Source: a virus
DNA: 20,381 bases
Virus record (IMG/VR): IMGVR_UViG_3300023301_000148
Coordinates: 1-20,381 of that record
Strand: one strand, 5' to 3'
Below are positions 975 through 13,654 of this stretch, piece after piece. The stretch's first letter is position 1. Each line of letters opens with the position of its first letter. Below the pieces are notes generated by a model. It did no database searches and was not told the origin of the DNA. It worked only from the letters and a program-made list of their open reading frames with translations. The position numbers were made by a program, and so were the translations under genes.

Positions 975-1006
975 TTTGGTATTGTAAAAAATAATACTCA
1001 CTTTTG
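975..1006 (+). promoter_or_regulatory. Predicted host-type promoter for the structured RNA and downstream operon
   Basis: TTTG (975-978), a 20-base spacer and CACTTTTG (999-1006) fit the Bacteroidota housekeeping consensus of a -33 TTTG, 19-21 bases and a -7 TAnnTTTG box, with C in place of the first T. Transcription would begin near 1012-1016. Its -33 box directly abuts the upstream element of the reverse-strand promoter, so the two divergent promoters touch. It lacks the TTAAAAAA element of the other phage promoters. Confidence 0.5.
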
Positions 1007-1012
1007 ATAAGC

Positions 1013-1131
1013 GGAAACTATACATGGAAAATCAAAAAAAAACAATTCAGACCTTAAACCCATACCCAACATCAGAGCGTGCAAACTTTTGCCGTGTGTT
1101 TCCGCACACCAGCTCGGTGTTGGGTTTTTTT
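1013..1131 (+). ncRNA. Structured three-way-junction RNA ending in a U-tract (small RNA or attenuator leader)
   Basis: A short transcript from the promoter at 975-1006 would fold as follows. The closing stem P1 pairs 1064-1073 with 1116-1125, including one T-G pair, and continues after a bulged A1074 as GAGC (1075-1078) with GCTC (1112-1115). Inside are two hairpins: GCAA/TTGC (1081-1084 with 1089-1092, loop ACTT) and GTGTG/CACAC (1094-1098 with 1105-1109). P1 runs into seven T residues, so the element also works as an intrinsic terminator. A second copy of the left arm, AAACCCA (1056-1062), can pair with TGGGTTT (1121-1127), a possible competing fold. The glycosyltransferase ATG lies 8 bases after the U-tract, so this is either an independent RNA of roughly 120 bases or an attenuator controlling the operon. 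No known family is recognised. Exact ends are estimates. Confidence 0.55.
1064..1131 (+). terminator. Intrinsic terminator or attenuator before the glycosyltransferase operon
   Basis: The 14-bp, one-bulge closing stem of the structured RNA is followed at once by TTTTTTT (1125-1131). It lies downstream of a forward promoter and just before the first gene of the long operon, so some read-through must occur unless another promoter exists. I see no other good promoter between 1007 and 1140. Confidence 0.7.
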
Positions 1132-1139
1132 AATTAAAT

Positions 1140-1940
1140 ATGGCACTAATAGTAATGGCTTCCTACGTAACCGAAACAAATAATCGGTTAGAATATGCTA
1201 AAAAAACGCTATCAAAATTATTGGAAACGGTAGATTTTAATAAGCACGAGTTGTTTATAAGCGATAATGATAGTTGCGAGGAAATGCTTAGTTTTTATGA
1301 AAATTTTACATTTATGTTTAATAGGAATTTTCATAGAAAAAACCTTACCATATCATACAATAAAACCAATTTAGGTACTGCCGAAGCGGTAAACTTAGGA
1401 ATAAGACAAAGGAAAGAAGGGCAATACGTAATTAAGATAGATTCCGATGTAACTATTAGCGAAAGCGGTTGGGTAGAAAAAATGGAAGAATGTTTTGAGC
1501 GTTACCCCGACTTAGGTATATTAGGACTAAAGCGTACAGAGGTAATACAGAAGCAAGACCACGAAAATCCTACCTATCAGACAAAGTTAGTATCAGTACC
1601 TCACCAGAGGGGTCAGAGTTGGATTATTTTAGAACTATGTTCGGATATTATCGGAACTTGTACGATGTTTAACCCGAAACTGTTAGACACGATAGGCTAC
1701 CTGTATCAACCTGCAAAATACGGTTGGGAAGATGTACTTGCTTGTGTAAGGTCAGAAAAGGCAGGATTCGTAAATGCTTTCCTACCGAGTATCCCTATTG
1801 TCCATTTAGACGATGGGTTAGGTGAATACACAAAACAAAAACAAAATGAAGCAGGTTTGGTTATTGACGAGTTTTCAGAAATAGCAGATGACTACAAAAG
1901 TGGCGTGAGAGATATTTACTATACCCCCTTTGAGAAATGA
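1140..1940 (+). CDS. GT-A fold glycosyltransferase, family 2-like
   Basis: Predicted nucleotide-sugar-dependent glycosyltransferase of 266 residues, acting in the cytoplasm. The N-terminus (IVMASYVTETNNRLEY) forms the first strand and helix of the GT-A fold, ending in FISDNDS. The segment NLGTAEAVNLGI (about residues 77-88) is the typical family-2 block before the metal site. DSDV near residue 101 is the DxD motif that holds the metal and nucleotide sugar. GWEDV near residue 195 matches the ED catalytic-base region near the acceptor. No membrane segment is present, so the acceptor is soluble or handled at the membrane face. It is the first gene of an operon and overlaps the next gene by the ATGA junction. 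Sugar donor and acceptor cannot be read from sequence. Confidence 0.9.
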   Translation: MALIVMASYVTETNNRLEYAKKTLSKLLETVDFNKHELFISDNDSCEEMLSFYENFTFMFNRNFHRKNLTISYNKTNLGTAEAVNLGIRQRKEGQYVIKIDSDVTISESGWVEKMEECFERYPDLGILGLKRTEVIQKQDHENPTYQTKLVSVPHQRGQSWIILELCSDIIGTCTMFNPKLLDTIGYLYQPAKYGWEDVLACVRSEKAGFVNAFLPSIPIVHLDDGLGEYTKQKQNEAGLVIDEFSEIADDYKSGVRDIYYTPFEK

Positions 1941-2575
1941 AATTAGTTACCGTAGCATCCCATTTAGACGTAAGGGGTTTAGAAAATCTAATCAGTTCTG
2001 CACAGAAGTTCGGATGGGATATAGAAGTGATACTTTCAGAGTGGAAGGGATTCGGCACTAAGTTAATTGAGGTGGCAAACTACTTCAATAACAACCCTGA
2101 CGTTAAAGAACTTATATTTGTAGATGCTTACGATGTTATTGCTTTATCTACTCCGCAAGAGGTTATTGAAAAAATCAAAGACCGAACCAAAATGCTTGTA
2201 AGTGTAGAGAAGGGGTGTTGGCCTGACAGTTCATTAGCAATACACTACCCCGAAGTAGACACCGATTGGAAATATATCAATTCAGGTACTTATTACGCAC
2301 CGAGAGGGGCGTTTATGGATATGATTGAAAAAAATCCACCGCTATATTCAAGTGACGACCAACTTTGGCTTACTATTGAATTTTTACATGAGCCAAGCAA
2401 GTTTGTTTTAGACTATGGTTGCGAGGTGTTCCAATGCTATTCATTTATTGCAGAGGATGATTTCGAGTACAAAGATGGCAGAGTTCACAATTTGAAAACC
2501 AATAGCAATGGGGTTCTGTTTCATGGAAATGGTCGAACCGATATGAGCAAAGTCTTAAATTTGATAGATTTGTAG
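1937..2575 (+). CDS. PLOD-type glycosyltransferase
   Basis: This 212-residue protein matches the glycosyltransferase domain of procollagen lysyl hydroxylases (PLOD), which transfers sugar to hydroxylysine in animals and also occurs in some viruses and bacteria. Visible hallmarks in order are VTVASHLD at the start; FVDAYDVI near residue 61, the DxxD metal site; a VEKGCWPD block with a following YP; YINSG near residue 112; DDQLWLT near 140; LDYGCEVFQ; and LFHGNG near 193. The whole protein is this one domain, with no hydroxylase part. It is translationally coupled to the preceding glycosyltransferase through ATGA. In animals the acceptor is hydroxylysine; here the acceptor is unknown, and a modified virion protein or another sugar are both possible. 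Confidence 0.88.
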   Translation: MKLVTVASHLDVRGLENLISSAQKFGWDIEVILSEWKGFGTKLIEVANYFNNNPDVKELIFVDAYDVIALSTPQEVIEKIKDRTKMLVSVEKGCWPDSSLAIHYPEVDTDWKYINSGTYYAPRGAFMDMIEKNPPLYSSDDQLWLTIEFLHEPSKFVLDYGCEVFQCYSFIAEDDFEYKDGRVHNLKTNSNGVLFHGNGRTDMSKVLNLIDL

Positions 2576-2576
2576 T

Positions 2577-3404
2577 GTGGGTAATCAAGTAATAATAGTG
2601 GTTTCATGTAAACTAAAAAAAGAAAAGCAGTGTGGGAAAAATAAGTGGAGGTGTACTGTACGTGGCGAGGAATGTTTAGTTTCAAGCAAGTATGGCAGAC
2701 TTTGTACACAAAACATGGATGAAGCAACAGGCGTATTTGATATATCGGAGATGGAGTGGATTGATATTCGCATTTACAACGTACAAAAAAATAATATGGT
2801 AGGAATACAGGGAGATTCAGCAGAATACGAATACCTAACCGAAGCGGTTAGGCTAAGTAAAGACGTAAAGGGTTTATGTATTGAATTAGGTGTCAGGCGT
2901 GGCATGGGTTGTAAGACATTAATGGATGCAGTTAAAGAATACTGCCCCGACAAGTCTGTTATAGGCGTTGACCCCTACGGTAACATAGAGTACTTCCACA
3001 AGGAGAACGAGAAAGTTAGGCTTGATTACACCAACACGATGAAGAACGAGGCTATGCAAGCGTTATATGCCTATTCAGAATCTATCGGAGTTTATTTCAA
3101 CCACTACACCTTAGAGGACACCGAGTTTTTTAATTCGTTTAAAAATGGCGTTCCGATCTACAAAGACTTTAAGGAAGTTATTAATCAGTATAGCGTGGTA
3201 CATTTCGATGCTCCCCATGCCGTAAAGGAGATTTTAGCAGAGATTAATTTTTTCAAACAAAGGACACCAAAGGGGGGTTGCTGGATTTTTGATGATATTT
3301 TAGATTTTTATCCACATGATGAAGAAGTAGAACCGTTCATTATTGGATTGGGGTTTGAGTTAATAAAAAAGGGCAACAAGAAAGCGTTATACCAAAGAAT
3401 ATGA
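2577..3404 (+). CDS. Class I SAM-dependent methyltransferase with Cys-rich N-terminal extension
   Basis: The methyltransferase part runs from about residue 95: CIELGVRRGMGCKTL is motif I binding S-adenosylmethionine, VIGVDPYG is the acidic end of the second strand, and VVHFDAPH followed by GGCWIFDDI matches the later strands of the Rossmann fold. The likely substrate is a sugar or glycan, judged from the flanking glycosyltransferases. The first 45 residues hold five cysteines among lysines (SCK, QCGK, RCTV, ECLV, LCTQ), perhaps a zinc-binding or disulfide-bonded module. The frame opens with GTG one base after the previous stop; starts at the ATG of 2715 or 2796 would remove the Cys-rich part, so the N-terminus is uncertain. 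The C-terminus, YQRI, is shared with the next gene product. Confidence 0.75.
   Translation: MGNQVIIVVSCKLKKEKQCGKNKWRCTVRGEECLVSSKYGRLCTQNMDEATGVFDISEMEWIDIRIYNVQKNNMVGIQGDSAEYEYLTEAVRLSKDVKGLCIELGVRRGMGCKTLMDAVKEYCPDKSVIGVDPYGNIEYFHKENEKVRLDYTNTMKNEAMQALYAYSESIGVYFNHYTLEDTEFFNSFKNGVPIYKDFKEVINQYSVVHFDAPHAVKEILAEINFFKQRTPKGGCWIFDDILDFYPHDEEVEPFIIGLGFELIKKGNKKALYQRI
3388..3404 (+). repeat. 17-bp direct repeat, copy 1 of 2
   Basis: TATACCAAAGAATATGA is found at this gene junction and again at 4083-4099. It encodes the shared C-terminal YQRI of the two methyltransferases together with the next start codon in the ATGA overlap. This suggests duplication of a methyltransferase unit with its junction, or recombination between cassettes. 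Confidence 0.8.
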
Positions 3405-4099
3405 CATTTAATGAACTAAAAGAAACGTGGGTAGACACACCCGAATTTCACGAGTTAGTAAAAAACAGTCTAACCGAGTTAGTAAACTCTGATGAGGTAT
3501 TAAGCGAACACAGAACCTTTGTCGAGAACCATGTGTACGGGTTTGGAGAAAGACCGTTTTGGGGAATGTGGAAACTACTGTTTGGGGAACTTGTTAAAGA
3601 GCCTAAAATACTTGAAATAGGGTGCTTTAAAGGAGCGTCTTTATCTGTTTTTAAACTACTTAATCCTAATTGCAGGGTTTATGGGGTAACACCATTAGAC
3701 AGTACAGGAATAGATTGGGAGGGAGATTACGCCCTTTTCATTAAAAATATACACGACCTATACAAGCAGGAGCAACCAATGATATTTCATGGTTTAAGCG
3801 AGAACCCTGAAATAATAAAACAAGCGGAAATGGTATCTCCGTATGACGTGGTGTATATTGATGGTGGACATTCGAGGGAACACATTGACAACGATTTGGC
3901 GTATTATGCACCTATGGTTAAAAGCGGTGGATACCTTGTGATTGACGATGCCTGTAATGACTTAAATATGCCTTGGGGGTACTTTCAGGGGATACAGTCG
4001 GTTAGTGATGGTGTCTTAGCGTGGGAGAAAACAGAGGAGGCCGAAGATTTTTTGTTTGTATTTAACGTAATTCATAACAGAATATACCAAAGAATATGA
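3401..4099 (+). CDS. Class I SAM-dependent methyltransferase
   Basis: A 232-residue methyltransferase of the type often called Methyltransf_24, which commonly modifies sugars or small molecules. ILEIGCFKGASLSVF (about residues 69-83) is motif I. VYGVTPLD (about 94) is the second strand, and YDVVYIDGGHSREHI (about 147) followed by GGYLVIDDA gives the post-I motifs; the IDGGH block with the later DD fits a metal-dependent methyltransferase or cephalosporin-hydroxylase-like fold. An N-terminal helical region of about 65 residues precedes the core. It overlaps the genes on both sides by ATGA junctions, so the three are translated as a coupled set. Substrate is unknown; a glycan made by the neighbouring glycosyltransferases is the simplest idea. 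Confidence 0.85.
   Translation: MTFNELKETWVDTPEFHELVKNSLTELVNSDEVLSEHRTFVENHVYGFGERPFWGMWKLLFGELVKEPKILEIGCFKGASLSVFKLLNPNCRVYGVTPLDSTGIDWEGDYALFIKNIHDLYKQEQPMIFHGLSENPEIIKQAEMVSPYDVVYIDGGHSREHIDNDLAYYAPMVKSGGYLVIDDACNDLNMPWGYFQGIQSVSDGVLAWEKTEEAEDFLFVFNVIHNRIYQRI
4083..4099 (+). repeat. 17-bp direct repeat, copy 2 of 2
   Basis: Identical to 3388-3404 and in the same position relative to gene ends: it contains the last codons of the second methyltransferase, its TGA stop and the ATG of the following GT-B glycosyltransferase. Confidence 0.8.
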
Positions 4100-5079
4100 A
4101 AAACATTTGCTACCTAAGTATGCTTGAAACAAACGCCTCTGCCTTTTACAGAATGGGGGGTGTGCTTAAATACCTATATTCTAACGACATAAATGTTACT
4201 AACCTACATACTATAACAAACAATTACGATTGGAGTATGTTCTTGGGTTACGATACGTTTATATTCCAAAGGCCATCACATGAACCTCATATATCCTTAA
4301 TTAAGTTAGCAAAGGACATGGGACTAAGGGTTATCTTAGATTACGATGATGATTTATTAAACGTACCATTCCACAACAACGCAAGTATTACGCTTAGTGA
4401 GCAGAAAACAAATATCAAGAAAGCTATTCATTTGGCAGACGAGGTTTGGGTAACTACGCCAAGCATTAAACATATTTATAAGCCATTTAATAAGAATATC
4501 CATATTATACCCAATGCTCACAACGACTACATATTTAAAGTAGAGGATAAAAAGCCGTTCAATAGGGATACAAAAATTATGGCATATCGGGGTGGTGGTA
4601 GCCACGATGCAGACGTTTATCAGAATATAAACGATATTGTGAGCATGATAAACGACAACCAAGATTGGAAGTTCAGGTTTCAGGGTAGCAGATTTAAGCA
4701 TATCGAGGAAAGGGCAATGAATAACATGGAATATACTGACCCTGTTACGCTGATGCAGTTTTACAAAGAATACCACGAGTTAAATGCCAATATTGCTTTC
4801 TTCCCGTTACTAACAAACGTATTCAATATTGGTAAGAGTAATATAGCACTATTAGAAGCCACGTATGCAGGGTCAGCGTTTATGGGTAATACGGAGTTGC
4901 CTGAATTTAAACACGACTTTGTTGTAGATATTTCAAATGGTGTCAATCCTTCCTTTTCAGATATTAAGGAGCTGCCTGTTTTTATGGAGCATATAAACTC
5001 TTTGGCATGGGATTGGATTTTAAAAGAGAGATTACTAAGTAAGGTAAACCAATTACGAATAGACAGAATTTGTATATGA
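4096..5079 (+). CDS. GT-B fold glycosyltransferase, family 4-like
   Basis: A 327-residue retaining-type glycosyltransferase of the two-Rossmann GT-B fold. In the N-terminal half, ILDYDDDLLNVPF (about residues 80-92) and ADEVWVTTPSIKHIY (about 114-128) are blocks shared with family 4 enzymes; IIPNAHND closes that half. In the C-terminal half, YRGGGSHDADV (about 164) and IALLEATYAGSAF (about 251) supply the donor-binding region, with the Glu of LLEATYAG in the conserved acidic position. It lacks a membrane anchor. It overlaps both neighbours by ATGA. Its presence beside two other glycosyltransferases suggests at least a two- or three-sugar product. The specific donor cannot be deduced. Confidence 0.88.
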   Translation: MKNICYLSMLETNASAFYRMGGVLKYLYSNDINVTNLHTITNNYDWSMFLGYDTFIFQRPSHEPHISLIKLAKDMGLRVILDYDDDLLNVPFHNNASITLSEQKTNIKKAIHLADEVWVTTPSIKHIYKPFNKNIHIIPNAHNDYIFKVEDKKPFNRDTKIMAYRGGGSHDADVYQNINDIVSMINDNQDWKFRFQGSRFKHIEERAMNNMEYTDPVTLMQFYKEYHELNANIAFFPLLTNVFNIGKSNIALLEATYAGSAFMGNTELPEFKHDFVVDISNGVNPSFSDIKELPVFMEHINSLAWDWILKERLLSKVNQLRIDRICI

Positions 5080-5369
5080 AAAAGATTGATAAATTAAAAC
5101 AGGATTACGAACCCGCTTGTAATGACTATTTGCATGAATTTTGCATAAAGCAAGACATGGAGAACGGTGGTTGGGTTGGTGACAATATTGGTGGGATTGC
5201 TATTTGTAGTGACTTTTTCTTCAATATGCACGATATTGTTTGGGATATAAATTCTAAACAAAAGGCTGGACTGATTATTAATTGGTATTACGATTGTTTA
5301 GACGATATTGGGACATCAATAAATTATTACAGCTATACTCGTGGACTAAAATCTAAGGACTTTAAATAA
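5076..5369 (+). CDS. Small acidic/aromatic protein of unknown function
   Basis: The start chosen is the ATG at 5076, which overlaps the previous stop as ATGA like the other junctions here; a start at 5070 would add only two residues. The 97-residue product has a charged helical N-terminus (KKIDKLKQDYEP), a Gly-rich centre (GGWVGDNIGG), and an aromatic C-terminal half (INWYYDCLDDIG, NYYSYTRGLK). No catalytic motif, signal or membrane helix is clear. I do not recognise the family. Its position between the sugar-modifying enzymes and the packaging genes does not assign a role. Confidence 0.7.
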   Translation: MKKIDKLKQDYEPACNDYLHEFCIKQDMENGGWVGDNIGGIAICSDFFFNMHDIVWDINSKQKAGLIINWYYDCLDDIGTSINYYSYTRGLKSKDFK

Positions 5370-5374
5370 ATAAC

Positions 5375-5536
5375 ATGGAAGAAAAAGTCGTAACGCCACA
5401 GGAAATACAAAAAGAGTTTCCAGAACTAAATGATGAGCAACTTGCTATTATTCGTGGGTGGGTTAATACGGCCTATTCTTTAGGATATAACTTGGGTACG
5501 GAAAATGCTAATTACGCAATGATACTTAACAGATAA
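5375..5536 (+). CDS. 53-residue protein of unknown function
   Basis: A short frame of 53 codons begins 5 bases after the previous stop and ends with TAA 10 bases before the next gene, filling the gap exactly. The predicted protein is acidic at the start (MEEKVVTPQEIQKEF) and probably helical through ELNDEQLAIIRGWVNTAY, with an amphipathic pattern. No family is recognised. The tight fit in the operon and coding-like composition support a real gene, but size limits confidence. Confidence 0.6.
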   Translation: MEEKVVTPQEIQKEFPELNDEQLAIIRGWVNTAYSLGYNLGTENANYAMILNR

Positions 5537-5546
5537 ATCAATCGGT

Positions 5547-6167
5547 ATGTATAATAGAATGTTTGTTCAGTTTGACAAAAAGCACAACAAGGTGTTTAAC
5601 GTGGGTGGCGTAGAAATTATGCGACCCGATATGTGGGTGCATACCGAACATGGTGGCGAAGAAACACGATGGATGGAAAATTTCAACATGAAAGAGGTTC
5701 ATCCACAAATAGCAACGGTTGGATTTACGACCCCTGACTATAAAAAGGGGGACAAGCTATTCTTTCACTACATGGCAAGGGAGGCAGACGAGGAATACGA
5801 AATTAACGGAGAAAGCTATTTCATGGTTTACCCTTATCACGTATTCTTTAAAATAGATGGGGATGAAATCATTATGGCAGACGATATGTACTTGGGTGAG
5901 CAGGTCTATACCGATGCAGTAAAAACAGATAGCGGAATTTACCTGACCTCTGATGAAAAGAAAAAGGAAACCTTGAAAATAAGAATCCTCCACGTTCCAA
6001 AGAACAGGTCAACCGTTAAACTACCAAAAGGGTTCAAAGAGGAAGATTATAAAATAAACGTGGGGGATATTGTGTGTACCGAAGATGATAGCCAATACTA
6101 CCTATCCTACCAAGATAGGGACTACGTAAAACTACACCATAACGAAATTGCAGCCAAGTTTGTATGA
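5547..6167 (+). CDS. Tandem GroES-like co-chaperonin
   Basis: This 206-residue protein reads as two GroES (Cpn10) domains in a row. The first, residues about 1-105, has NRMFVQFDKK like the first strand, GGVEI (20-24) at the mobile-loop position of the GroES GGIVL, IATVG (55-59), YKKGDKLFFHY (65-75) like VKVGDIVIF, and EINGESYFMVYPYHVFFKI (85-103) like the closing strands. The second, about 115-206, has SGIYLT (129-134) in the mobile loop, INVGDIVC (170-177) and DRDYVKLHHNEIAAKF at the end. It probably caps host GroEL during folding of a virion protein, as T4 gp31 does for its capsid protein. Tandem GroES domains are known from chloroplast Cpn20. It overlaps the next gene by ATGA. Confidence 0.8.
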   Translation: MYNRMFVQFDKKHNKVFNVGGVEIMRPDMWVHTEHGGEETRWMENFNMKEVHPQIATVGFTTPDYKKGDKLFFHYMAREADEEYEINGESYFMVYPYHVFFKIDGDEIIMADDMYLGEQVYTDAVKTDSGIYLTSDEKKKETLKIRILHVPKNRSTVKLPKGFKEEDYKINVGDIVCTEDDSQYYLSYQDRDYVKLHHNEIAAKFV

Positions 6168-6514
6168 AAAAGCCTAACTTAGATGGATTAACACAGCAAC
6201 AGTCTGACTACATAACGTATTTAGAGGGGGCGCTATTTGGCTCTAATGACCTAACAAATGAACTTCAATTAATGAAGAAACAGATTGCAAAGGAGTTAGA
6301 AACTATACGTGAGGATGGGCAAGTGTTAAAAGATGATAAAATGTTTACTAAAATTGTAGTGTTAATGGGAGAGGATAATAAGTCCAAAACAATATCAGCA
6401 AAAGTAGGAAAGAGTAAGAAGGAGGAAGAGCAACCACAGGAATTTACAGGCGAGAATATATTTGAGCAGGTAGCAAAAAAGGTAATGAACAAGAATGTCG
6501 GCAAATCAGCATAG
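6164..6514 (+). CDS. Small protein preceding the large terminase, candidate small terminase subunit
   Basis: The 116-residue product begins with LTQQQSDYITYLEGALFG, a likely helical segment, followed by a predicted coiled or helical region (NELQLMKKQIAKELETI), a short beta-like stretch (KMFTKIVVLMG) and a charged Lys/Glu-rich tail. It overlaps the large terminase gene by 20 bases, and translation of the two is probably coupled. Small terminase subunits are usually encoded just before the large one, are small and helical, and bind DNA; those facts make this the best candidate here. No clear helix-turn-helix can be named by eye, so the assignment rests mainly on position. Confidence 0.7.
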   Translation: MKKPNLDGLTQQQSDYITYLEGALFGSNDLTNELQLMKKQIAKELETIREDGQVLKDDKMFTKIVVLMGEDNKSKTISAKVGKSKKEEEQPQEFTGENIFEQVAKKVMNKNVGKSA

Positions 6515-8672
6515 GGGTGAAAAGAAAAGGAAGCAAGAGGCACAGGAATCTGATGCTGAATATGTTCCAAGAGTAAGAACATGGAAAGAGGGTAAGCCTA
6601 TAAGGTCGTCTATTCAGGGCATAGACTATGTTACTCCACCTGTCCCCGATATGTATAAAATTCGGGGGTTTGAGTTACCAAACGAAGATCAGATTTGGTT
6701 CAGGGATGAAACGTATTTACAATGGGATTGGAATACAGACGTAAAAGAGGGCGTTCTATGGCATCAAGCACCGCAGTCTGGTCAGATGGAATGGTTTATC
6801 GAAGAAATACACCGACTACATCATGGCGAATGGGTTTTCATAAATGGTTTCCCTACCTACTTCAATAAATACTGTTATTTCTTTCATCAATGGTTCAAGC
6901 TACAAGAGGATATATACCCGATATATAAAGACACCTCTTTAGAATATCTAAACTTCTACAAGCTATGCGAGGACGATGATTTTACATTAGGGGATTGCGG
7001 TATCAAAGGTCGTAGGGTTGGATTGTCCTCAATGGCGGCATCAATCATGCTTTTAATTGGACTTCTTGAAGAAAACACCCTACAAGGTATTGTTTCTAAA
7101 ACAGGTATTGATGCCAAAGAAATGTACCTAATGGTTAAGAACGGATTAGAGAAACTACCTGAATTTCTTATTCCTGAATTAGCAAAGGTGGCAGAAACAG
7201 AACTTCATATCGCTAAACCAAGAGCGAGAATTTCGGCAAATAACAGAACGGTATCTGCCGACAAGGGTAAAAACAATAGAATAAATTGGCTACCAACGGC
7301 TGAAAACTCTTACGATGGTAGAAAGGCACGAAGGATAACTTTAGACGAAGCCGCTAAAATTGAAGAGTGTAACGTAGAAGTTTTACTATCAAATATTAGT
7401 GAAACATTGGTTGTCGGTGCTTCTGTTAGTGGACATATATCTGTATTTAGTACAGTAAACAAGGGCGACAAGGGCGGTGACAACTTTAAGAATATTTGGT
7501 TGGCATCAAACCATTTGGGCAAGGTAGATAGTATTGGTCAAACACCATCACGACTTAAAAGATTTTTCTTAGAAGGTTTTAGGGGGTATTACGGATACAT
7601 TGATAAGTACGGAAACTCTGTTATTGAAAACCCTACCCCTGAACAATCAGCATACTTAGAAGAAGTGCGTGACCCTATTACGGGTAAAAAAGTGTGCCCA
7701 AACCCGAATATTGGTGCAAGGCAATACCTGCAAGAGAGAAGGCTTCAACTTGCAAACAACCCCGAAAAGTTAGGCGATTGGATTAGAATGTATCCTTTTG
7801 AGTGGATTGAAGTATTCAGGGGCGTAAACAACCAATGCCACTTTAACTTAGAGGAACTAACCAATCAGATAGAACGTATTGAAACGCTATTAGAGGGCAC
7901 AGGCTTATCCGAAAACGGGAGAAGTGGTCGGTTCAGGAAAAGAGAAAATGGCGAGGTTTACTTTGAGGATAGCAATATAGGGATGTGGTATATCCTTGAA
8001 TTTCCAGAAAATCACAATAAGTCGGTCTATCAAGGAAGTATAAAATGCCCCGACAACACCTCATTCGGGAGTGCAGGGCTTGACCCATTCGCTAATTCAA
8101 GGCAAACGGTAGACAAAGGGTCAGATGCTTGCTGTTTAATACATAAGCGTTATGATAGTTTAAACCCCGAAAATTCAGACTATCCATGTGCTATGTTTTT
8201 GGGTAGACCCGATACGAAACAGACTTTCTTTGACCAAATATATTGGGGATTAGAGTACTTTGGAATACGTATGTTAGGAGAACGTGCCCCTACGGATTGG
8301 GTAGATTATGCCATGCACCCAAGTACAAGACTTGCATCCCCTGAAACCGCACCTAAATTACATGGGTATTTAATACCAACCAAGAGGGCAAACGGTTCAG
8401 AGGTGTACGGTTGCGCCCCACAAGACAAAGAAGCGAGAGAGCAACACCTAACAGAAATGGTAGAGTACGCTTTAAATAAAATGCACAAAATAAAATTCCT
8501 AAGACTATTAAAAGATATGTTAGGCTTTAATATAAACGATAGAACGGATTACGATGCTTGTATGGGGTGGGGGTATTCCTTGATGGGATTAAAGTCTGAC
8601 TTTAGAAAGAAAATTGTAGAACCCAAATTAATTAATTTTATGCAAGTAAGGAAGTCTAAAAAGTACTATTAA
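6495..8672 (+). CDS. Terminase large subunit (packaging ATPase and nuclease)
   Basis: This 725-residue protein drives DNA into the prohead and cuts the genome. The ATPase has a variant Walker A, KGRRVGLSS (about residues 170-178), and a Walker B, RRITLDEA (about 279-286), followed by FSTVNKGDKGG, the likely coupling motif. The C-terminal RNase H-like nuclease shows AGLDPF (Asp near 529), MLGERAP (Glu near 595) and DRTDYDA (near 681-687) as its acidic triad. A charged N-terminal extension and a long segment between residues 30 and 160 make it longer than most large terminases, as in crAss-like phages. It is the last gene of the operon that starts at 1140, overlapping the previous gene by 20 bases. 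Confidence 0.96.
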   Translation: MSANQHRGEKKRKQEAQESDAEYVPRVRTWKEGKPIRSSIQGIDYVTPPVPDMYKIRGFELPNEDQIWFRDETYLQWDWNTDVKEGVLWHQAPQSGQMEWFIEEIHRLHHGEWVFINGFPTYFNKYCYFFHQWFKLQEDIYPIYKDTSLEYLNFYKLCEDDDFTLGDCGIKGRRVGLSSMAASIMLLIGLLEENTLQGIVSKTGIDAKEMYLMVKNGLEKLPEFLIPELAKVAETELHIAKPRARISANNRTVSADKGKNNRINWLPTAENSYDGRKARRITLDEAAKIEECNVEVLLSNISETLVVGASVSGHISVFSTVNKGDKGGDNFKNIWLASNHLGKVDSIGQTPSRLKRFFLEGFRGYYGYIDKYGNSVIENPTPEQSAYLEEVRDPITGKKVCPNPNIGARQYLQERRLQLANNPEKLGDWIRMYPFEWIEVFRGVNNQCHFNLEELTNQIERIETLLEGTGLSENGRSGRFRKRENGEVYFEDSNIGMWYILEFPENHNKSVYQGSIKCPDNTSFGSAGLDPFANSRQTVDKGSDACCLIHKRYDSLNPENSDYPCAMFLGRPDTKQTFFDQIYWGLEYFGIRMLGERAPTDWVDYAMHPSTRLASPETAPKLHGYLIPTKRANGSEVYGCAPQDKEAREQHLTEMVEYALNKMHKIKFLRLLKDMLGFNINDRTDYDACMGWGYSLMGLKSDFRKKIVEPKLINFMQVRKSKKYY

Positions 8673-8719: not shown

Positions 8720-11194
8720 ATGCCAATACCATCCAACTTTGAGAATCCACTTGCTCCCGATGCAGATAAAAATAGTGAGCAGTATGGGTTAAATTTTATG
8801 CGGACTGCCTACGAAAAATGGAGAGTAGGTTCTGCGGAGAGTGCAGCAGATAGAAAACGTAGGTATGAATACAACCGTTCTTACGCTTTCGGTATGCAGG
8901 ACATGACCGAGTTTAAAGACATTTTGGACTTAGATGGAGCGATGTCCGTAATCAATTTAGCGTATGACCCATTACCTATTGCTATCCCGTTCATTAATAG
9001 GCTAAAAGATAGATACTTGCAACGCATAGAGAAAATACAATGTAATGCAGTAGACCCTTTATCTCAAACAAAAAAGGAAAAAGCCAAAGCCAATGCACTC
9101 TTTAAGCTAAAGAATAAAGAGCAAATCATGCAACTTCAAGAAACATCAGGAATAGAGTTAGAGGAATTTAATGATGACGACCCTGAAAGTGAAGCAGAAA
9201 TAGATATTGAGTTTGGATTTAACTACAAGGAGAGGGAAGAAGTAATCATGGAACAGGGCATTGACCTTGTTTTTTATGATAACAGTTGGTCAGACGTAAT
9301 CAAAGATAGAATCCTTACAGACCTAATTAATTGCGGTATATCCATGATATGCCCATATATTGACCCGAATGGCAGGATTAAAACCCCATTTGAGAAACCC
9401 GAAAATATCATTAGTGGTTATTCGGAGCGTGACGATTTAGAAGATGCTCAATACATGGGTCGTTGTACCCAAATGAGTATCATGGATATTCGCTTACAAT
9501 ACCCGAACAAGATAACAGAAGAAAAACTATTTGAACTTGCCCGAAGCCAAAAAGGTATTAATGGTAATGCGAATGAGTGGTCATGGGATTGGAATCCACA
9601 ATGGAGTTCTGCATTAGCAAGACCGTATGACTCATTTACCGTTACCGTAGTAATGCTATCTTTAAAAACCCTGTACGGATTAAAGTACAAAGTTTGGAAC
9701 GATAGTTTTGGTAGTGAGAAGCTAACTAAGGTAGAGTGGTTCTCCAAAGAAGAAGAAGGTTCTAAATACAAAAAAACTAAACCGTACTTTGTAGAGTACT
9801 GCGGTATCCATATTGTAGACACGCCCTATGTATTATCGTGGGGGCTAGCTAAGAACATGATTAAGCCACAAGATAACCTGACAGAGATTAAACTGCCTTA
9901 CATAGTGTTCATGTATAACAATCATAAGATGGTAAACAAGCCAATGATTGAAACCATGATACCCTCGATTAAGATTATGCAGTTGGTAGCGTTACAGCAA
10001 CAAAAGATAATTGCAGCAGCAGCACCCGATGGCTTCGAGGTAGATATTTCCACGATGTCGGATATTACATTGGGGCAAGACTTAAAAAACCTATCTCCAT
10101 TTGAGATTTACAGGATATACAAACAAACGGGTATTCAGTACTACAAAAGGAAAGAAGATGACGGCGAGGGGCAAAGACAAGCACCGATACAACCAAAGAA
10201 TGTACCTTTTAGCGATAAGCTGAATCAGTTGATGGGTGTCTGGAACGCAGAGTACGATAAATTAATGCGTATTGTAGGTACAAACAACTTAGCGGAAGGT
10301 CAGTTAAGCAACCAAGCGGTAGGAAAACAAGTCCTGCAAGATGCAAGGCAAATCGGGGAGAGTGCGTCCAACTATATTTACAATGCCTATCTAAATATGT
10401 ATAAGAGAACTGCAAGAATTGTTCAAATGCGGTTATGGGATATATTGGTATATGGTAAAAAGGACGGCATTACTTATTACGATGGATACAGACAAGCATT
10501 AGGTTCAGACCGAGTAGAATATATTCGTGTAGAGGGCACAGATGATTTCGAGAGGGCACAGTTTGATGTTAAAATCGAAGCAATCTTAGATGATAAGGAA
10601 GCACAAATGCTGGAACAAAACATTCAGGTGTGTTTAGCTAACGATACTATCACGCTCCAAGATGCTATTGATATACGACTATTGGCGAAGTCTAACATAA
10701 AGTATGCAAGTTATATGTTGGCATCAAGAGAAAAGAAGCGTAGGAAGGCGAAAATGGAAGAAGGCATCCAACAATCGAAATCAAATACGGAGGCGGCAAT
10801 CGAGGCGGCTAAGGCTAAATCACAGGGCGAGATGGAATTAGAGCAACTTAAAGCACTACTACAAGCACAAGCAAGGTTAGACGAAATAGAGGCTTTAAAA
10901 TCATCTGAATCAATTAAATTCACTCAAATAGCCAAAGTAGAGGTTATTAAATCTATCCTAAACAAAGAGGGTGGGACTGTTGACCAAATCCCTGCATGGG
11001 CATTAGAGGGTATAGAGCAAACCAATATTCTTTCATCGGTATTATTAGAACAACAAATACAGGGCATTGAAGAACAGGAAATGCAGGAGCAACAAATGCA
11101 GGAGCAACAAATGATGGAGCAAGAACAGATGGCTATGCAACAAGGTCAGATGGGTGAACAACAAATGATGCAGGGTGAAGAAATGATGCAATAG
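8720..11194 (+). CDS. Portal protein
   Basis: The 824-residue product fits the portal, the twelve-subunit ring at the head vertex through which DNA enters and leaves. It lies directly after the terminase and before scaffold and capsid genes. The N-terminus contains the charged, helical entry typical of crAss-like portals (RKRRYEYNRSYAFGMQDM), then the wing region with NLAYDPLPIAIPFINRLKDR, an acidic insertion around residues 145-165, and a stem/clip part leading to long helices (VEVIKSILNKEG). Residues about 680-760 are strongly helical with Ala/Lys/Glu bias (barrel-like). The last 45 residues are an extreme Gln/Met/Glu-rich tail with QEQQM repeats. At over 800 residues it is in the long class seen in crAss-like phages. 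Confidence 0.93.
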   Translation: MPIPSNFENPLAPDADKNSEQYGLNFMRTAYEKWRVGSAESAADRKRRYEYNRSYAFGMQDMTEFKDILDLDGAMSVINLAYDPLPIAIPFINRLKDRYLQRIEKIQCNAVDPLSQTKKEKAKANALFKLKNKEQIMQLQETSGIELEEFNDDDPESEAEIDIEFGFNYKEREEVIMEQGIDLVFYDNSWSDVIKDRILTDLINCGISMICPYIDPNGRIKTPFEKPENIISGYSERDDLEDAQYMGRCTQMSIMDIRLQYPNKITEEKLFELARSQKGINGNANEWSWDWNPQWSSALARPYDSFTVTVVMLSLKTLYGLKYKVWNDSFGSEKLTKVEWFSKEEEGSKYKKTKPYFVEYCGIHIVDTPYVLSWGLAKNMIKPQDNLTEIKLPYIVFMYNNHKMVNKPMIETMIPSIKIMQLVALQQQKIIAAAAPDGFEVDISTMSDITLGQDLKNLSPFEIYRIYKQTGIQYYKRKEDDGEGQRQAPIQPKNVPFSDKLNQLMGVWNAEYDKLMRIVGTNNLAEGQLSNQAVGKQVLQDARQIGESASNYIYNAYLNMYKRTARIVQMRLWDILVYGKKDGITYYDGYRQALGSDRVEYIRVEGTDDFERAQFDVKIEAILDDKEAQMLEQNIQVCLANDTITLQDAIDIRLLAKSNIKYASYMLASREKKRRKAKMEEGIQQSKSNTEAAIEAAKAKSQGEMELEQLKALLQAQARLDEIEALKSSESIKFTQIAKVEVIKSILNKEGGTVDQIPAWALEGIEQTNILSSVLLEQQIQGIEEQEMQEQQMQEQQMMEQEQMAMQQGQMGEQQMMQGEEMMQ
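11067..11191 (+). repeat. Gln/Met-rich repeat encoding the portal C-terminal tail
   Basis: Imperfect copies of CAGGAGCAACAAATG and related GAACAACAAATGATG units encode QEQQM, QEQQMM and GEQQMMQ runs. The region is part of the portal gene and probably produces a flexible or helical tail. Confidence 0.8.
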
Positions 11195-12295: not shown

Positions 12296-13654
12296 ATGTC
12301 AATTATACAACCAAATACCACACCTGCACAGTATGCAGAATCGTCTGTAAGCAGACAGGGGCTACTTTCAAGTGGTCTAAATGTCGTGAACGTAATTGCT
12401 ATGAGCAAGTTCATCGAAAAATACAATTATGTACCTTATGTTATGGTCAACGAGTTGGCAGGTAACATTGAGAAGTCCGATAACAAAGAAGTGAGATGGT
12501 ATGAATCTCATGGTCGTTATATGGGGTTTGTTTCCGCATCAGCAACAGTTTCAGTATCAGCAGGAGCAGCAGCTACTATTACCGTTGGAGCAGGAAGTTA
12601 TTCTTTGGCGGGTACAGAGTCATTACCAACATCAGGGTTAATTTTCTACAACTCACGTACAGGTATCGAGGGTAGAGTGTCTACATCGAACAAAGCTACA
12701 CCGTATGCACATACTTTCGTGCTTACCCCTGTAAATTCAGGAGAAAATGTATCTGTTTTGGCAGGCGACCAATTATTGAACAGAGGTCAGAAATACTTAG
12801 GTGAGGGTTCAACAAAAACCGAAACTATCATCCGTAACATTGACAGATATGCTAACTTTAATACCGAGTTGAGAAAGGATAGTACCTTGACTGACCTTGC
12901 GTTGGCAGAGAGAATCGAGTTTGAGATTGGTGGTCAGCACTATTTTACTTACAAGCAGAAGCGTGATGACGATATGTCTTTACTTTTGGAGAGAGAGTAC
13001 TTAATCATGGAATCTACTCAAACCAATAACTTAGGTTATGCAGAGTCGGGTTCTAATGGTGTTATCAAGCAAGTAGAAGCAAACGGTATCAATGGTACAT
13101 TTAATACTTTTGGTATTCAGACTACACTTGCAGCGATAGAACGTGCATTGTCAGCAGTAGGTGCTCCAAAGGAGTATGATATTCTTGCCGACAAGACTTC
13201 ATATATCAATATGCAGAACGCTTTCTTCAATACTGTAAACAACGGTGCAATCATTTATGCTGAAGGCGTAAACCGTAACGGAATTGATTTGAGTATAAAC
13301 TTCCAATCAGTAAGTGTATATGGTCGTAAGTACAACTTGACCAACTACCAACTGTTTGACGAAGCGCAAATGTACGGTTCAAGCGGTAACGGGCTACGTA
13401 ACAACTTTATGATGATGATTCCTGTTGGAAAAACACAGGCGATGGATTCAAACGGTCAAACTGTAACTGTACCACGTTTCTGTGTAACTTACCAAAACCC
13501 CGGTGGTGGAGGTATGAAATGGCACACCGCCAACACAGGATTGTTTGCATCCACTCCAACTTCACCAACCGCAGAAAGTGTTTACACTACTATCGGTTAC
13601 TTCGGAGTAAAAGTGTACGGAGCAAGTCAGTACCTTATTATGAAAGGTCAATAA
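12296..13654 (+). CDS. Major capsid protein (HK97 fold)
   Basis: This 452-residue product fits the capsid shell protein by size, position and layout. The N-terminal arm leads to KFIEKYNYVPYVMVNELAG. Residues about 78-165 are rich in Ala, Val, Gly, Ser and Thr (ATVSVSAGAAATITVGAG) and look like an inserted beta domain or extended E-loop exposed on the shell. Then come the long spine helix region (TDLALAERIEFEIGGQHYF, DDDMSLLLEREYLIME) and the A domain toward the C-terminus (LSAVGAPKEYDILADK). The gene uses CGT, GGT and GTA codons more than its neighbours, fitting high expression. It has no promoter of the TTAAAAAA type of its own, so it is probably transcribed with the scaffold gene, and a strong terminator follows. 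Confidence 0.9.
   Translation: MSIIQPNTTPAQYAESSVSRQGLLSSGLNVVNVIAMSKFIEKYNYVPYVMVNELAGNIEKSDNKEVRWYESHGRYMGFVSASATVSVSAGAAATITVGAGSYSLAGTESLPTSGLIFYNSRTGIEGRVSTSNKATPYAHTFVLTPVNSGENVSVLAGDQLLNRGQKYLGEGSTKTETIIRNIDRYANFNTELRKDSTLTDLALAERIEFEIGGQHYFTYKQKRDDDMSLLLEREYLIMESTQTNNLGYAESGSNGVIKQVEANGINGTFNTFGIQTTLAAIERALSAVGAPKEYDILADKTSYINMQNAFFNTVNNGAIIYAEGVNRNGIDLSINFQSVSVYGRKYNLTNYQLFDEAQMYGSSGNGLRNNFMMMIPVGKTQAMDSNGQTVTVPRFCVTYQNPGGGGMKWHTANTGLFASTPTSPTAESVYTTIGYFGVKVYGASQYLIMKGQ

Follow-up and report, generated by a model that had tools for sequence, protein, structure and literature searches.

A glycosyltransferase and methyltransferase cassette beside the packaging genes of four unrelated phage types, with a possible role in building a methylated virion glycan

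The virus fragment IMGVR_UViG_3300023301_000148 raises the question of what a run of glycosyltransferase and methyltransferase genes upstream of the terminase gene does for a phage. The whole record of 20,381 bases was analyzed and is referred to here as the window; the host of the virus is probably a member of the Bacteroidota. The reading that we favor, with a probability of about 0.6, is that the genes encode a late-expressed cytoplasmic pathway that would equip a virion protein with a variable, O-methylated glycan.

The initial annotation had placed five linked enzyme genes at positions 1140-5079, and open reading frames together with family and fold matches confirm all of them. They lie on the plus strand. 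The constant 5' end of the cassette is a GT2-family glycosyltransferase (GT-A, 1140-1940; PF00535, 6.6e-11), whose DxD motif (D101/D103) is invariant in its homologues and which has relatives at 29 viral loci according to profile searches. It is followed by a PLOD-type glycosyltransferase (PLOD-GT, 1937-2575), which belongs to the domain family PF25342 (8.2e-31) with a score of 107.5 bits against a cut-off of 27. Residues D63 and D66 of its DxxD motif are invariant in eight homologues, and its best PDB match is 9dyt, the mimivirus protein R699 (6.3e-29), with human LH3 also matched. Two class I methyltransferases both match PF13578 (Methyltransf_24): MT3 (2577-3404; 2.3e-7, and TylF at 0.012) and the sugar O-methyltransferase-like MT4 (3401-4099; 1.4e-10, and RMNT_CmcI at 6.2e-7), for which a profile search retrieved 162 viral relatives. 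The constant 3' end is a GT-B glycosyltransferase (4096-5079) that has no Pfam match but corresponds to the glycosyltransferase family phrog_7162 (3.5e-24); its AlphaFold (AF2) model has a pLDDT of 94.9 and resembles PDB structures of GT-B enzymes, among them BshA, MshA and PimA. None of the five proteins contains a transmembrane-like segment (maximum KD19 1.14). Pfam, PHROG and PDB fold matches thus agree that the phage encodes glycosyltransferases, which a phage virion glycosylation system requires.

Within the cassette, three junctions are ATGA overlaps and the fourth is a 1-base gap; a further ATGA leads into a small ORF at 5076. The earlier description of four such junctions holds for the genes as annotated, yet the 1-base gap hinges on the GTG start of MT3, because this protein probably starts at ATG 2796. 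The later start is proposed from the alignment, in which the homologues do not extend over the first ~72 residues. The stretch 2577-2795 encodes these Cys-rich N-terminal residues, which are either an extension or a separate small gene. Among 90 same-strand junctions counted in relatives, 60 overlap by 4 bases, and together with the invariant catalytic motifs this argues that the cassette is not a product of chance.

The cassette had been described as leading into a tandem GroES protein and the large terminase. The order is correct, with two small ORFs in between: one at 5076-5369 (plus strand; function unknown; ATGA-coupled to GT-B; phrog_35741, 9.6e-11) and a second at ~5378-5536. The GroES-like co-chaperonin gene follows at 5547-6167 (plus strand; PF00166, 1.5e-5), with a Cpn10 match that lies in the C-terminal half of the protein and spans residues 122-205 only, so that a tandem arrangement is unsupported. 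Further downstream on the same strand are the large terminase subunit (TerL, 6495-8672; phrog_6681, 8.6e-66), the portal protein (8720-11194; phrog_6547, 3.4e-88) and a putative major capsid protein (12296-13654), assigned from its position in the head block and a match to the virion structural protein family phrog_13704 (2.9e-12); the last has no match among isolates. In three relatives the terminase ORF comprises 1042 amino acids rather than the usual ~700 (L020:5405-8533, L022:11150-14278 and L039:12661-15789), perhaps because of an intein or another insertion.

Searches by tblastn with TerL and portal matched only Cellulophaga phages (Pervagoviridae and Pachyviridae), Elemovirus, Maribacter phage Panino and MW202828, all at 24-27% identity. 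No Crassvirales record was among these matches, although remote homology could escape such a search, and the designation of the block as crAss-like is left without support. According to the NCBI taxonomy, the Cellulophaga phages phi38:1 and phi46:3 belong to Pervagoviridae and Pachyviridae, respectively. The window shares the gene order GroES, terminase, portal, scaffold and capsid with phi38:1. In this cultivated phage the slot before GroES and terminase is occupied by tail, tail-fibre-type and endosialidase-chaperone-type genes, which argues for a product of the cassette that acts on the virion.

Relatives of the cassette were found in 91 distinct IMG/VR contig groups, where contigs with identical cassette proteins were merged and the count precedes the PLOD-GT search. 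Profiles of GT-A, GT-B, MT4 and PLOD-GT were used, which reach viral contigs far from the window; for PLOD-GT a close single-sequence search gave no match and the profile search did. There are 65 groups that combine three or more cassette genes with a visible terminase, and in every one of them the cassette lies no more than 4.2 kb from the terminase; contigs within one packaging type are related, and the independent observations are the four packaging types, not the 65 groups. These four unrelated types are the window lineage, a Terminase_3/TerS type, a Terminase_3/portal type and an HK97 type. Most often the cassette of the window lineage reads GTA-MT3-PLOD-MT4-GTB (13 groups) or GTA-PLOD-MT4-GTB (9 groups), followed by GroES and terminase, and the order of the window itself, GTA-PLOD-MT3-MT4-GTB, is rarer. 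The second type (~40 groups) shows GTB, small ORFs, GTA, PLOD and MT4 ahead of a small terminase and a Terminase_3 large subunit; its closest isolates by terminase are the Flavobacterium phages FPSV-S2 and Fpv5 (55%). In the third type (L077) the cassette lies between the portal and the head-morphogenesis and major head genes. The fourth (L053) carries GTA-PLOD-MT3-MT4-GTB upstream of an HK97-type terminase, with interspersed HNH genes; these endonuclease genes, at 10705-11085 and 12477-13565, lie inside or beside the cassette. The same enzyme families thus stand beside terminase, portal or capsid genes in each type, which bears out the coupling to packaging and head genes that had been proposed from the window alone.

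Exceptions to this linkage occur. In L192, L200 and L118/L119 cassette genes are present, but the visible sequence around them shows no terminase, and GT-A or GT-B occurs on its own in several further records. In L192, GTB still lies beside GroES and GTA-PLOD about 10 kb away. The full cassette was not found in 50,697 phage records. Bacterial genomes contain only remote relatives, and close bacterial ancestors can be rejected, as the search gave none for GT-B and MT4 reaches only 25-32%. A PLOD-GT homologue is present in the cultivated Roseobacter phage CRP-6 (gp58; L175), in a structural block between tail and capsid genes, and this phage is a possible laboratory model.

Stability of the system at this locus was only partly confirmed in close relatives. 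GT-A and GT-B mark the ends of the cassette in the window lineage, and the middle is exchangeable. Among relatives in which this locus can be seen, L013 is the closest (TerL 80% identical); it has kept GT-A and GT-B around an unrelated middle. That middle encodes a transaldolase, an FkbM-like protein, another GT-like protein and a protein of 807 residues that combines nucleotidyltransferase-like, HAD, kinase-like and methyltransferase parts. In L014 the middle is made up of a fusion of HAD and nucleotidyltransferase together with a different methyltransferase. For these two relatives, the labels FkbM-like, kinase-like and GT-like were read from the sequence. In gene trees the MT4 of the window groups with L145, L147 and L154, and its GT-A is nearest to L016 and L023; the middle of its cassette is a mosaic, as these two genes have different nearest relatives. 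Phage type changes only rarely along the gene trees: the MT4 tree takes 5 changes, with 4 as the minimum, against a mean of 23.6 after shuffling.

The recurrence beside packaging genes suggests an exchangeable methylated sugar coat that the phages put on their own virions. The cassette would be transcribed late, together with the head genes, and its soluble enzymes would act in the cytoplasm. One glycosyltransferase would start a short chain on a hydroxyl of a virion protein, the others would extend it, and the two methyltransferases would O-methylate the sugars. Nucleotide sugars would come from the host or, in relatives of the L013/L014 kind, be made by the phage, and a swap of the middle genes would change the type of glycan, as in a serotype. 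The enzyme families fit a methylated glycan such as the initial annotation had inferred, with a virion protein as the putative acceptor. The methyltransferases match sugar O-methyltransferase families in Pfam at weak to moderate levels, which counts in favor of this reading, as do the GT-A gene that adjoins a major head protein in L036 and the position of the PLOD-GT homologue in CRP-6. Against it count the cassette genes that lie away from the head block in L040, L192, L200 and L118/L119, and the cassette-less close relative L006, whose capsid gene is ordinary and no different in length. No structural family besides the cassette is common to the four types, and thus the types would have to use different acceptors; the cross-type matches concern packaging genes of related T3 types, replication-type genes and unknown genes. 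A collagen-like acceptor was rejected, as at least eight GXY repeats were found in none of the loci except L163, a distant GTB-only record.

The strongest alternative, which we regard as rather unlikely, is that the enzymes modify a glycan of the host surface late in infection by extending and methyl-capping lipid-linked O-antigen or capsule units. Such capping would stop progeny from re-adsorbing to debris or would block superinfection. Soluble glycosyltransferases and methyltransferases would also fit work on host lipid-linked glycans, which weighs against the virion as target. Bacterial O-antigen and capsule modification clusters with sugar O-methyltransferases are similar in family content: the GT2/GT4-like glycosyltransferases, the sugar O-methyltransferases and the HAD and nucleotidyltransferase genes of L013 and L014 all resemble pieces of such clusters, and the middle differs between relatives as surface-glycan genes do. 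However, the cassette lacks their assembly and export genes, its close relatives are viral, and no flippase, polymerase, ligase or membrane glycosyltransferase is part of it. Phage gtr serotype-conversion cassettes are likewise compact clusters of phage glycosyltransferase genes, but they need a flippase and membrane glycosyltransferases, and a GtrA-type flippase and membrane glycosyltransferases are absent here according to Pfam and a TM scan. The constant site among packaging and head genes in four phage types and the lack of close bacterial homologues for GT-B, with only remote ones for MT4, also argue against a host-surface target.

It is improbable that the genes are passenger morons in a permissive slot before the terminase with no common virion function. 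The GTB-only and cassette-less relatives (L006 and L138-L142) and the isolate Fpv5, which has no cassette before its terminase, are what such passengers would leave, but families, catalytic motifs and overlapping junctions have been conserved over the long term in four phage types and phage-type labels are strongly clustered on the trees. Action of the glycosyltransferases and methyltransferases on a hypermodified base before packaging is very improbable: the cassette lies beside the terminase and the GT-B model matches the T4 alpha-glucosyltransferase 1y6f (TMq 0.70), but this fold is shared by many GT-B enzymes, no base-hydroxylating or base-modifying enzyme was found among the proteins scanned in the 20-kb fragment, both methyltransferases have their matches among sugar O-methyltransferases, and enzymes of the PLOD family work on protein-linked sugars.

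Phages that glycosylate their virions with enzymes of their own are known mainly among the mycobacteriophages. The phenomenon itself is not new, and no open-access description of the cassette or of its spread was found in a limited literature search, according to which the cassette is apparently undescribed. In Che8 and related mycobacteriophages a glycan has been shown on the capsid (Freeman et al. 2023, via PMC11256854), phage-encoded glycosyltransferases are proposed to decorate virion proteins and the glycosyltransferase genes of Maravista are described near the 3' end of the genome. In contrast, the genes described here lie in the packaging operon, include a PLOD-type glycosyltransferase and two methyltransferases, and are common to unrelated phage types. 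Chlorovirus PBCV-1 glycosylates its capsid protein Vp54 with virus-encoded glycosyltransferases and an O-methyltransferase domain (A64R), independently of the host secretory path (PMC4691112). This resembles the activities predicted for the cassette, but chloroviruses infect eukaryotic algae and use different genes, and A64R fuses glycosyltransferase and methyltransferase in one protein. Mimivirus R699, which adds glucose to galactosylhydroxylysine (PMC9546862), and human LH3 belong to the same Pfam family as PLOD-GT, whereas the phage loci other than L163 lack a collagen-like protein of the tested pattern. If the virion is indeed the target, virion glycans would be a wider, modular trait of phages, and GT-A, PLOD-GT, MT4 and GT-B would be marker genes that predict them from sequence. 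The role of the coat in receptor binding, stability or escape from grazers and host defences would be directly testable, and culturable systems may be within reach, since the nearest isolates are phages of Flavobacteriia.

Upstream of GT-A, the window contains a leader RNA at 1011-1125 (plus strand) that can form a crossing-stem (H-type) pseudoknot and ends 14 nt before the GT-A start. Stem S1 pairs GCGGAAAC (from 1011) with GTTTCCGC, and stem S3 pairs ACCCAACATC with GGTGTTGGGT (ending at 1125). The stems covary in 18 leaders of the window lineage, namely those of the window and of L005, L009, L010, L013, L014, L016, L019, L021, L039, L043, L062, L068, L069, L075, L149, L153 and L158, with 17 distinct S1 and 17 distinct S3 sequences. 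The 333 Watson-Crick and 21 G-U pairs were counted within stems that had been picked by pairing, and because of this selection the fact that no mismatch occurs adds no independent support. Such support comes from the sequence turnover in both stems and from the recurring place of the pseudoknot between a TTTG or TTTA box, 3-7 nt upstream of the RNA in the 18 leaders, and the first start codon. In the window this box is TTTG at 1003-1006 (plus strand), a candidate -7 box of a Bacteroidota-type promoter for the cassette or late operon; we infer this function because the box fits the published Bacteroidota consensus. A scan of 2.67 Mb with fixed score and ATG distance found operon-head sites on 14 contigs and ~8 matches elsewhere, and dinucleotide shuffles of the same regions rarely reached the scores of the leaders (99% quantile 41.5). 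Rfam gave only chance-level matches. The pseudoknot was not found in L006, which has the protein P86 described below and no cassette, in L008, L012 and the GTB-only relatives examined, and at the strict score several phages that carry the cassette (L048, L055 and L154) also gave no match.

The leader RNA may serve in 5'-end stabilisation, translation control or ligand sensing. A role as terminator was rejected, as the T-run that follows it in the window is absent in most relatives. A possible 37-codon ORF of putative coding function (1024-1137, plus strand) runs across the pseudoknot to a point just short of GT-A. Most leaders have a comparable ORF, but a conserved leader peptide was rejected, since none was found in L014 and L019, which are relatives of L016. 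Only tentatively, and at somewhat less than even odds, do we extend the proposal to a portable capsid-serotype cassette that serves at least four unrelated packaging types with a variable methylated virion glycan and that, in one lineage, has a new class of 5' pseudoknot RNA at the start of the late operon as its dedicated regulator.

Divergent from the candidate promoter of the cassette, the minus strand encodes P86 (649-909), an 86-residue protein rich in Ser, Thr and Ala and without Lys or Arg. Of 16 related viral records, 14 contain a member of its family, and its AF2 model (pLDDT 82) has a RemA/FlbD-like predicted fold, with RemA as the best PDB match (Z 6.6). P86 was rejected as a shared acceptor, as it is present in the cassette-less L006 and absent from the other phage types. 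Between P86 and the ORF at 297-551, an AT-flanked inverted repeat read from the sequence at 594-631 (AAAAAGCCATG...CATGGCTTTTTT) is likely a bidirectional terminator.
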